From Desulfitobacterium dichloroeliminans LMG P-21439 (GTDB lineage Bacteria > Bacillota > Desulfitobacteriia > Desulfitobacteriales > Desulfitobacteriaceae): a stretch of DNA of 64,000 nucleotides. Numbering within the stretch: the first letter of the stretch is position 1; every line of letters starts with the position of its first letter. Positions 15,983 through 26,635 of this stretch are shown here, piece by piece. The stretch spans positions 2,828,001 to 2,892,000 of the forward strand of contig NC_019903.1 in NCBI RefSeq assembly GCF_000243135.2. The letters run 5' to 3'. The notes under the pieces were generated by a model, which saw only the letters and a program-made list of their open reading frames with translations, was not told the origin of the DNA and did no database searches. Both the position numbers and the translations under genes were made by a program.

Positions 15983-16801
15983 TTACCCCTCCCTTGTTGG
16001 CAACCGGCGAATCCAACCCGCCATTCGTCCTGTATTCGGACCTTCTATGCGATAGGAGAAGAAGGAGTCCGTATGACAGGCAGTACATTCTCGGGCAATC
16101 CAAATCTTCTCCGGTGGTATCCCCGCTTCCCTCAGGACCATCGCATTCGCTTCCCGCAAATCCAGTTGGAAATGTCCTTGTCGGCCCGGTTTTAGAAAAG
16201 GTGTTCTTAAAAAGCTCTTCTCAAACTCCTTCTGCACGGGTTCATCCACTTCATAACAGCAGGGGCCAATACTCGGCCCAATGGCTGCCCAACATTCTGC
16301 AGGGTCACCCCCTCGTAGACGAAACAGTTCTAACATCTCACTAACGATCTTGCCAGAAGTACCTTTCCAGCCCGCATGAGCAATGCCTACCGCTTGGAGA
16401 AGAGGATGATAAAAGAACACCGGAACGCAATCCGCAAAGAAGGCCATAAGAGCGGTATGGGTCACAGTCATTAACCCATCGACACCAGTAATTACAGTAT
16501 CAAGAGATTCGGAACCTCGTCCGGCATCTCCTTCAGTGACTTGATGGACCTTTGTTCCATGGACCTGTTCCCCTAGGGCGACCTCCCCCGGCAAAGTATT
16601 CCATTCAGCAAACCATAACTTGCGATTATTTTTCACTTGATCTGGGGAATCGCCCACATGGAGTCCAAGGTTCAAGGTCGAATAGGGAGATGAGCTAACC
16701 CCTCCCCAGCGTGTTGAAAATCCAATCTGAATACCCTCCGCTTCCCATGCAGGAAGAGTAAGATAGACTAGTTCCTTTCCCTGACGCCAACTCCATACCA
16801 T
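15983..16801 (-). CDS. pgeF: PgeF/YlmD laccase-domain protein (purine nucleoside phosphorylase / peptidoglycan editing)
   Basis: A 272-residue DUF152/laccase-fold protein. Zinc-site residues are visible in EQVHGTKVH, DCVPVF and AHAGWKGTSG, with GPSIGPCCYEV downstream. In E. coli PgeF removes mis-added L-Ser from UDP-MurNAc; related enzymes cleave purine nucleosides. Its place in the ylm cluster matches ylmD. Which activity is primary here is not visible. Confidence 0.93.
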   Translation of the reverse strand: MVWSWRQGKELVYLTLPAWEAEGIQIGFSTRWGGVSSSPYSTLNLGLHVGDSPDQVKNNRKLWFAEWNTLPGEVALGEQVHGTKVHQVTEGDAGRGSESLDTVITGVDGLMTVTHTALMAFFADCVPVFFYHPLLQAVGIAHAGWKGTSGKIVSEMLELFRLRGGDPAECWAAIGPSIGPCCYEVDEPVQKEFEKSFLRTPFLKPGRQGHFQLDLREANAMVLREAGIPPEKIWIARECTACHTDSFFSYRIEGPNTGRMAGWIRRLPTREG

Positions 16802-23788: not shown

Positions 23789-24682
23789 TCAGTTTGGTGA
23801 GATATACCTCACCTCTGTCTTTAACTCGACACCAAACTTCGTTTGTACATCCGTGTGTATCCCATGAATCAAATTCAAAACATCCAGCGCTGTGGCGCTG
23901 CCGTGATTGACAATAAAGTTAGCATGCTTTAGGGACACTTGAGCTCCACCTATCGTTTTCCCCTTCCAGCCGGCTGCTTCGATTAATCTTCCCGCCGAAT
24001 CCCCATCAGGATTTCGAAACACGCTTCCGGCATTAGGTAGTTCCAAAGGCTGTGTTACTTTTCGTTTGGCAAGATTCTCACTCATGATTTGACGAATCGT
24101 AGCCGAGTCACCCGCCTTAAGGCAGAAGACCCCTTCCAACACAATGGCCTGATCCCTTAGGGAACATTCCCGATAACCAAATTCAATATGTTCCTTCCCA
24201 AGTCTTTCAACCTTACCCTCTCGGTTAATAATCTTCACTTCTACCAAGACATCTTGGATACTTCCTCCGTGGGCTCCGGCATTCATCACTATCGCCCCGC
24301 CCACAGTCCCGGGAATTCCGCGAGCAAATTCTAATCCTGTGTATCCGCATTCAGCAGCATCTTGAGAAAGACGGGCTAAGGAATATCCCGCTCCCACTCT
24401 AACCTGCGACCCACCCCAAACGCATTGAGCCACGCCCGTACTGATTATCGTAACCCCCGTTAGTCCCTCATCAGGAAAAAGAACATTCGATCCGCGACCG
24501 AATAGCCGAACAGGTATCTCTTTTTCGTGACAAGACAACCACACCGCCATTAATTCTTCTTCATTTTCAGGCCAAAAAACTGCTTCAGCCAATCCCCCGA
24601 TTCGCCATGTATTCAGGCTTTTCAGAGGAAATTGGCGTTCGACCCGTCCCTTCATTCCTTGTAATACCCCATGCAAAATCAT
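23789..24682 (-). CDS. murB: UDP-N-acetylenolpyruvoylglucosamine reductase
   Basis: A 297-residue FAD enzyme that makes UDP-MurNAc. Blocks NTWRIGGLAEAVFWP, LFGRGSNVLFPDEG, EFARGIPGTVGGAIVMNAGAHGG (in two halves) and LPNAGSVFRNP are diagnostic; the active-site serine is in AGSVFRNP. Start at 24682 is chosen because AAGGTGG is 7-8 nt upstream; an ATG at 24688 is too near that site. The start lies 98 bp inside the preceding MurC-like gene, so translation is probably coupled. Confidence 0.96.
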   Translation of the reverse strand: MILHGVLQGMKGRVERQFPLKSLNTWRIGGLAEAVFWPENEEELMAVWLSCHEKEIPVRLFGRGSNVLFPDEGLTGVTIISTGVAQCVWGGSQVRVGAGYSLARLSQDAAECGYTGLEFARGIPGTVGGAIVMNAGAHGGSIQDVLVEVKIINREGKVERLGKEHIEFGYRECSLRDQAIVLEGVFCLKAGDSATIRQIMSENLAKRKVTQPLELPNAGSVFRNPDGDSAGRLIEAAGWKGKTIGGAQVSLKHANFIVNHGSATALDVLNLIHGIHTDVQTKFGVELKTEVRYISPN

Positions 24683-25454
24683 CAGCATACCACCTTATGT
24701 TTTCCCTAGGATCAATACCGAGGAAGATATTCAGATTCACATCCTGGATGCGCCGAATCGTATCCCAAGGCACTCCTATTCGCAGTGCTTGTAGCACTAT
24801 GGAATATATTATATCTTCCTTGGCATTATCTTCACTGGGCAAAATACAACCCAGATACTCGTAATGCTTCTGATCCCCATAGAATTCCACCCGATTTTCC
24901 CGACGAATCCAGCAACTCTCGGGAAGAACCGACTGTGGACGGCGTCCAAAAGCCTCACCGCCTAAGCAATTCTGTAACCACTCAGCAGAAATAACCCAAT
25001 GAAGGCCATTGCCGATTCGTACATCCCATTGCCCTTCTTCCTTCTGCCACAACAAGGAAGGTTCGAACCCTGCCTTATTTAAGATCCTCCATAAGAAGGG
25101 TTCTTCTTCAGATTCAGTGTGAGATACTGGCAGAAGGATCTCTTCCGCCCAATACCTATGTAGAAATTCCGTAAGTACTGTCTGCATAAGTCCTCGAGAA
25201 AGGCCCCATTCTCGATAGGGATCTTCCGGTGGGATTCCCGGCCAATAGAGAATTTCTGTAGGCCCAACATCAGCTAATCTATAGGATTCCTCTTCTAGGC
25301 CTGAGGATGAAAAATCCGCCAAGTCCATCGGAGTCTCCGCTGAGGTTTCTCTGACGATTACGTTTCTATGTAGGGCATTCAGCAAGCTAAGAATTCCTTG
25401 CCAGCCTTCAAACCCTCGGGGAACGAGAAGTAATATTTTTTGCTTAGGCCACAT
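24585..25454 (-). CDS. MurC-like pseudoenzyme, P-loop lost and C-terminal domain missing
   Basis: This 289-residue protein sits where murC normally lies (between murG and murB). I read it as a shortened Mur-ligase relative. Residues 67-80 (EILYWPGIPPEDPY) match the N-domain end; residues 106-137 align without gaps to the MurC ATP loop region, but the GTHGKTTT core is VSHTESEE here (110-117). Residues 145-159 (VRIGNGLHWVISAEW) match the following strand; 205-236 (LPSEDN...LRIGVPWDTIRR) match the PGEHN helix; 257-266 ADDFAWGITR matches DDYAHHPTE. It then ends, 100 residues short. ATP binding should be impossible. Frame and ribosome site are intact, so it is probably expressed. It might be a regulatory relic; function unknown. 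Confidence 0.7.
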   Translation of the reverse strand: MWPKQKILLLVPRGFEGWQGILSLLNALHRNVIVRETSAETPMDLADFSSSGLEEESYRLADVGPTEILYWPGIPPEDPYREWGLSRGLMQTVLTEFLHRYWAEEILLPVSHTESEEEPFLWRILNKAGFEPSLLWQKEEGQWDVRIGNGLHWVISAEWLQNCLGGEAFGRRPQSVLPESCWIRRENRVEFYGDQKHYEYLGCILPSEDNAKEDIIYSIVLQALRIGVPWDTIRRIQDVNLNIFLGIDPRENIRWYADDFAWGITRNEGTGRTPISSEKPEYMANRGIG

Positions 25455-25525
25455 AACAAACCCACTCCCTTCCTTCTGACTGTCATATGTTATGCAAGTA
25501 AGTCAGAAGGTGTGAAAGAAGAGGA

Positions 25526-26635
25526 TTATTTCCAAGCAGTGTCCAGGCAAACCTTGACAATTTTCTCTAGCGCATCCGGTTGCCCTGACTTCCGAGCAGA
25601 ACGAGACATCTCTGCTAATTGCTCAGGGTTTTCCGCCAGGCCTTGAATCACTGCCCAAAGATTCTCACCGGTTAAATCCTGATCTAGAATCACACGAGCT
25701 GCGCCATCCTTTTCCAAAGCCCGCGCATTAAATTCTTGATGGTTTTCGGCAGCAAAGGGGTAAGGAATAAGTATCCCCGGTTTACCTGCCACCATGATTT
25801 CCGCTAAGGTCGTAGCCCCAGCCCGCCCCACGAATAAATCAGCACAAGCCAGTGCTTCAGGCATAGCCTTAAGATATTCTAATATCCGCCAGTTCTCTCT
25901 TTGCCACTGAATTCCTTCAGCCTTTAAAGTCTCCACAGTCTCCTGATAGGTTGCTTTGCCTGTAGCCCAAATCACTTGAATCTCCGGATGATTTGCTAAC
26001 TGCCTGAGTACCTTAGGCATGGCTTGGTTAATACTGCGTGCACCCCGACTGCCTCCTGTCACGAGCAAGGTCAAATGCTCAGGACGTAATCCCAAACAAT
26101 CTGCCCCTTTTTGCCGGGATATACTTCCGATCTCGGGACGCACCGGGAGACCGGTTAAGATCAATTTCTTGCGCACACCAAAGTGAGCAATGCTTTCCGG
26201 GAAGGTTACCATCACCTTGCGCACAAAACGGGTGAGGATTTTATTGGTGATACCCGGCAAGGCATTCTGTTCATGAAGCAAGGTCGGAATCCCAAATAAG
26301 GCCGCGGTCAATACCACAGGCCCTGATACATATCCTCCGGTTCCGACAACGAGATCCGGTTTATACTTCTTGAGAATCTCTTTTGTCTCCCACAAGGCCT
26401 TGATTGTTTTGCCCCCTACCTTGAGCGTATCCAGGCTAATTTTGCGGGGAAGCCCTTGCCCCGACACCCCTTTAAAGCTAATTCCGGCTTCAGGAACTAG
26501 GCGTGCTTCCATGCCTTCTCGTGTACCCACATAGAGGATTTCACTATCCGGTACTTTGGCGAGAATCCCCTTCGCAATCGCTAGGGCTGGGTAAATATGG
26601 CCGCCTGTTCCTCCACCTGTGACAATCACACGCAT
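25526..26635 (-). CDS. murG: MurG lipid II synthase
   Basis: A 369-residue GT28 glycosyltransferase that adds GlcNAc to lipid I on the inner membrane face. The N-terminal loop is TGGGTGGHIYPALAIA, with GTGGYVSGPVVLTAAL and the UDP-GlcNAc site FVGRAGATTLAEIMVAGKP. AAGGAG precedes the ATG. A 778-bp gap with two palindromic repeats separates it from ftsW. Confidence 0.97.
   Translation of the reverse strand: MRVIVTGGGTGGHIYPALAIAKGILAKVPDSEILYVGTREGMEARLVPEAGISFKGVSGQGLPRKISLDTLKVGGKTIKALWETKEILKKYKPDLVVGTGGYVSGPVVLTAALFGIPTLLHEQNALPGITNKILTRFVRKVMVTFPESIAHFGVRKKLILTGLPVRPEIGSISRQKGADCLGLRPEHLTLLVTGGSRGARSINQAMPKVLRQLANHPEIQVIWATGKATYQETVETLKAEGIQWQRENWRILEYLKAMPEALACADLFVGRAGATTLAEIMVAGKPGILIPYPFAAENHQEFNARALEKDGAARVILDQDLTGENLWAVIQGLAENPEQLAEMSRSARKSGQPDALEKIVKVCLDTAWK

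Follow-up and report, generated by a model that had tools for sequence, protein, structure and literature searches.

The place between murG and murB that murC usually holds in the dcw cluster was occupied, in the window (the whole 64,000-nt stretch of DNA analysed, to which coordinates refer unless given for the contig), by a gene encoding a 289-aa protein that descends from MurC and is devoid of its ligase machinery (gene X; 24585..25454, minus strand; defined by ORF, profile, HMM and AlphaFold/Foldseek comparisons). As far as can be read from sequence, X most likely serves peptidoglycan precursor synthesis as a MurC-derived protein that is under selection, has no catalytic activity and acts by binding or regulation.

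The gene at the murC slot and its descent

The open reading frame of X was intact over 289 codons, with an ATG start and a ribosome site (GGGAGTGG). It was separated by 71 bp from its upstream neighbour murG (25526..26635, minus strand; named by context and tblastn synteny), and it overlapped the downstream gene murB (23789..24688, minus strand) out of frame by 104 bp (24585..24688, minus strand). Frame, start, ribosome site and overlap were as given in a preliminary description of the locus, where the overlap had been put at about 100 bp. The murB Shine-Dalgarno sequence, AAGGTGG (24690..24696, minus strand), was located within X; when translated in the X frame, this element gives the conserved NIRW/NLRW motif that immediately precedes the overlap, and it falls in the IRW/LRW codons. 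An ORF near the same cluster (15983-16801, minus strand) resembled by eye the YfiH/PgeF family, which in E. coli corrects erroneous products of MurC (PMC8844914).

Within the order, f1 denotes the family that includes Desulfitobacterium, Desulfosporosinus and other Desulfitobacteriaceae, f4 its sister family, and f2 and f3 the order's other two families. Identity within the X family was 26-65% across f1. Searches of Pfam and NCBIfam gave no meaningful match for X or for 24 relatives, all of which fell below the TIGR01082 cut-off and had no Pfam Mur_ligase domain. Matches of some members to SigZ (best E 0.0026) were marginal, had no support in the structure search and were rejected as chance.

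Descent from MurC was established by three comparisons. When a profile of 30 X sequences was aligned to one of 44 MurCs with hhalign, a score of 49.9 was obtained (P 4.3e-6, probability 87%), the match placing X residues 59-137 (25044..25280, minus strand) on MurC 53-133, that is, the second half of the N-terminal domain and the start of the central one, with one short gap. Controls scored lower: the best of 30 column shuffles reached 21.3, the reversed profile 16.1, single sequences of MurE, MurF, MurG, MurA, MurB, FtsZ and others at most 23.5 against the X profile, and MurD 28.4, in the helix that ends its central domain. With smaller MurC sets the matches were colinear but weaker, spanning X 77-251 and 13-136. 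An HMM built from X sequences only was used to scan 398 genomes of the phylum and produced eight matches outside f1 (E 3.6e-6 to 2.8e-4), all of them MurCs with intact GxHGKTTT and [DE]DYAHHP[TV]E motifs, and a ninth match lay inside a MurC of the same order. Finally, AlphaFold2 models of the window X (pLDDT 79, pTM 0.75) and a relative of Desulfosporosinus type (pLDDT 73, pTM 0.69) were compared with 350,542 PDB chains by Foldseek; MurC took the top 24 and top 27 places, respectively (best E 1.3e-6 and 1.6e-7), with Mpl and MurD ranking after it. TM-scores were low (about 0.4-0.5), as expected of a cut, deformed two-domain protein. The relation to MurC proposed in the preliminary description was thus borne out, profile comparison and modelled structure both picking MurC first among Mur ligases; of the alignment over residues 67-266 claimed there, the credible part ends near residue 240.

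Relative to MurC (UDP-N-acetylmuramate--L-alanine ligase, TIGR01082), with which X shares descent and, in f4, the same dcw slot, the N-terminal half and the start of the central domain were colinear. In the joint alignment, X retained the Rossmann-like half at the N-terminus, the FLH helix that leads into the ATP-loop position, and an AGFEPS turn where MurC has AGLDPT. In place of the ATP loop GTHGKTTT, by contrast, X carried VSHTESEE (residues 110-117; 25104..25127, minus strand), as had been noticed from the single sequence, and the P-loop (GxHGKTTT) was missing from all 30 aligned X sequences. The central motifs EADESD and DHLDHY were replaced or deleted, and about 100 central-domain residues were missing, followed by a remnant of the last helices of that domain (residues 188-236; 24747..24893, minus strand; LxLGVSWxDIRxAL), the likeness of which to MurC is weaker than that of residues 59-137. 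The C-terminal ligase domain was absent too, in agreement with the preliminary description, and so was the DDYAHHPTE motif that precedes it. The sequence ADDFAWGITR, previously read as a relic of that motif, falls in X 256-289, the out-of-frame overlap with murB, and was discarded as a coincidence arising from it. Throughout the 30 aligned sequences, the family was thus without the catalytic residues of its homologous enzyme; X lies outside the MurC enzyme family, failing its defining catalytic features, and is expected from its sequence to have no ligase activity.

The family also gained conserved tryptophans. Residues 153, 159 and 230 were invariant tryptophans across the 30 aligned sequences, and tryptophans 2, 136, 143 and 182 were present in at least 28 of them, while the aligned MurCs had none of these. 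The most conserved stretch (residues 128-160; 24975..25073, minus strand) contained tryptophans 136, 143, 153 and 159. All invariant residues were glycine, proline, alanine, leucine, tryptophan or one tyrosine, none of them a typical catalytic residue, and these residue types count against a new enzyme and speak for a binding protein.

Displacement of murC from the dcw cluster

The genome of the window (3.62 Mb, one contig) contained one full murC, far outside the window (G000:C1:610719-612050), as had been predicted from the state of X. It is adjoined by an apparently split NiFe hydrogenase gene, the large-subunit gene at about G000:C1 612857-615918 (L194:9358-12419) seemingly being interrupted by a DDE transposase gene. 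X was present in 44 of the 46 f1 genomes searched, and wherever neighbours could be read it lay between murG and murB. The two exceptions were G011, in which neither X nor a readable murB was found, and G015, in which murG and murB were about 108 bp apart with nothing between them. All nine genomes of the sister family f4 had a full murC between murG and murB, exactly where X is found in f1, which upholds the earlier identification of this position as the usual murC slot. Nothing was found at the murG-murB slot in f2 and f3. In some f3 genomes (L080, L085, L089) an additional murB-like gene lay at a distance from the tested cluster genes. The murB of G006 and G014 (L082, L083) matched in two pieces within a single open frame, seemingly with an insertion near residue 180-188; X in these genomes has an expanded linker.

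Of the 61 relatives, 60 carried a single full standalone-type murC elsewhere in the genome. When 44 MurCs were placed in a tree, the dcw-linked sequences formed one side of a branch (support 99/98), and the standalone MurCs of f1-f3 grouped with standalone MurCs of other Firmicutes. As judged from this tree, the enzyme in use in f1-f3 is of another lineage than the dcw MurCs; with the standalone MurC in a different clade, MurC has been displaced and the old copy became X. Placement of X with the dcw MurCs was favoured (94/92), and the p-AU values were 0.1 for X with the f1-f3 MurCs and 0.32 for X with all standalone MurCs. That X stems from the dcw and not the standalone clade is the favoured reading, and it leans mainly on gene position.

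Selection on X and its upstream element

Over residues 1-240, dN/dS was 0.16-0.46 in 14 pairs (0.06-0.18 for murG), and differences were concentrated at third codon positions. When drift to the same divergence was simulated, at least 98% of X copies acquired a stop, with many more residue changes than were observed. Given these results, X is best read as a translated, selected protein under weaker constraint than its neighbours, with a rate of evolution two to four times theirs. This fast evolution and the loss in G015 indicate that X is not essential everywhere. Broken frames and neutral rates were sought among the relatives of X and not found; the frame was intact and conserved in relatives, so that the refuting outcome named in the preliminary description did not arise, and the protein was under purifying selection, in keeping with the earlier view of X as a kept but catalytically dead relative of MurC, since ATP site and ligase domain are both gone.

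A promoter-like element, CACACC-N14-CATAACATA (25486..25514, minus strand; consensus CACACC-N14-CATARSATA), was detected between murG and X with the same spacing across f1 loci. The CATARNATA box was located 30-34 nt before the X start in 29 of 29 loci readable upstream, with the CACACC box fixed 14 nt ahead of it (CACCCC or a weaker form in three of the 29). The bases between both boxes varied and the murG-X spacer differed in length among loci; conserved boxes at a constant distance from each other point to a promoter. In f3, a comparable pair of boxes preceded murB. The strict pattern matched once in the genome of the window, at this site, and a backward control pattern gave no match. The element lies here in an inverted repeat (CCTTCTGACT...AGTCAGAAGG), and a search of Rfam with it returned nothing credible. 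The consensus for sigma-K, of the mother cell, consists of an AC box, a spacer of about 16-17 and CATANNNTA, and we take the boxes before X to resemble this type of mother-cell sporulation promoter. No link to spore genes could be made for the other genome matches of the element pattern. The element may possibly be a sporulation-type promoter or an RNA hairpin.

Alternative readings and proposed role

Two alternatives concern what X is. It might be no relative of MurC, its likeness reflecting chance or the general Rossmann fold, and the lack of Pfam and NCBIfam matches to Mur models would fit, as would an X-MurC identity of about 10-17%, scores of single MurC sequences against the X profile that ranged from 18 to 44 (some no better than controls), and a PDB sequence search with the X profile that returned one irrelevant match and no MurC. 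Against this, profile, HMM and structure comparisons all picked MurC first, colinearly and above controls, for a gene that sits in the murC slot, and this alternative is barely credible. It might otherwise be a decaying murC pseudogene without function, as its missing catalytic parts, faster evolution and loss in G015 could suggest; the frame, however, is open in 44 of 46 f1 genomes of several genera, dN/dS in close pairs is well under 1, and drift would have left stops in nearly every copy. Decay, which the dN/dS values and the simulation led us to reject, is very improbable.

Two others concern what keeps X in place. Translational coupling to murB could be the main reason for its retention, the protein itself mattering little: X precedes murB in every locus read, and in most relatives the murB Shine-Dalgarno and start lie within it. 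Yet purifying selection and invariant residues extend to parts of the protein far from murB, the end of X relative to murB varies (in L021 and L033 it falls short of the aligned murB start), and f3 genomes express murB without X, so that this explanation appears unlikely. There is a modest chance that X now serves a process other than peptidoglycan synthesis and owes its place in the cluster to inheritance only, for which its fast divergence (26-65% identity within f1), its new conserved tryptophans and the loss of ATP loop and ligase domain can be cited; against it, in no locus examined was X separated from murG and murB, and it has the promoter-like element and the overlap in common with murB.

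Our preferred reading is that a displaced dcw murC gave rise to a selected, non-enzymatic binding protein of precursor synthesis. Descent from MurC, the loss of its catalytic parts, displacement and selection are established by the comparisons above; for the order and cause of these changes we infer the following course. The order would have come to depend on a standalone MurC of a different clade; the dcw copy, no longer tied to catalysis, would have shed the P-loop, about 100 central-domain residues and its entire C-terminal domain. It would have retained the Rossmann-like half at its N-terminus along with a portion of the central core, acquired the conserved tryptophans and then come under purifying selection. 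X would now be a non-enzymatic binding protein co-made with MurB, would bind a precursor-synthesis protein (MurG, MurB or the displaced MurC), and would tune or locate the synthesis of UDP-MurNAc-peptide; a part in spore-wall synthesis might be added, given the sporulation resemblance of the promoter-like element. Taken as a whole, the passage from displaced murC to binding protein seems to us evenly poised between right and wrong. The narrower proposal, that the old enzyme became a non-catalytic protein dedicated to regulating peptidoglycan precursor synthesis or acting as its adaptor, perhaps when the spore wall is made, is put forward tentatively, as something short of an even prospect. A regulatory or scaffold role, as envisaged in the preliminary description, is plausible.

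Many pathways are known to include pseudoenzymes. No description of X or of any bacterial Mur-ligase pseudoenzyme was found in the open literature searched (mostly without subscription papers). MurT retains a ligase fold that uses ATP, and its partner is the amidotransferase GatD. As is proposed for X, MurT/GatD involves a Mur-ligase-like protein in a changed role, there another peptidoglycan role (PMC6085368), but X has no ATP site and no gatD lies beside it between murG and murB. The MurE-like protein of the plant plastid transcription complex is a Mur ligase relative with its main role outside the wall in flowering plants (PMC9434261); it is MurE-derived and serves plastid gene expression, whereas X is MurC-derived, bacterial and still in a wall-gene cluster. 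MurG has been proposed as a scaffold for Mur enzymes, MurC included, and MurG-MurC fusions exist (PMC6420597), which gives a precedent for the association of Mur enzymes with MurG; the partner in those cases is an active enzyme, while X is predicted from sequence to be inactive.

The f1 lineages have swapped in a MurC of another lineage and kept the crippled, non-enzymatic remnant of their own under selection at its old site, which suggests a new job for it. The steps are visible in living relatives: in f4 the slot contains the intact enzyme, in f1 the enzyme has been displaced and the slot contains its dead, selected relic, and in f2 and f3 the slot is empty. They clearly illustrate how an essential enzyme can be displaced and what is left of it put to use again. 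Current annotation libraries miss this gene family. For spore-forming anaerobes, X offers a candidate, open to testing, for a regulator or adaptor in the synthesis of wall precursors and, if the proposal is true, would be a bacterial Mur-ligase pseudoenzyme acting as a regulatory part of the pathway that it once served as an enzyme.
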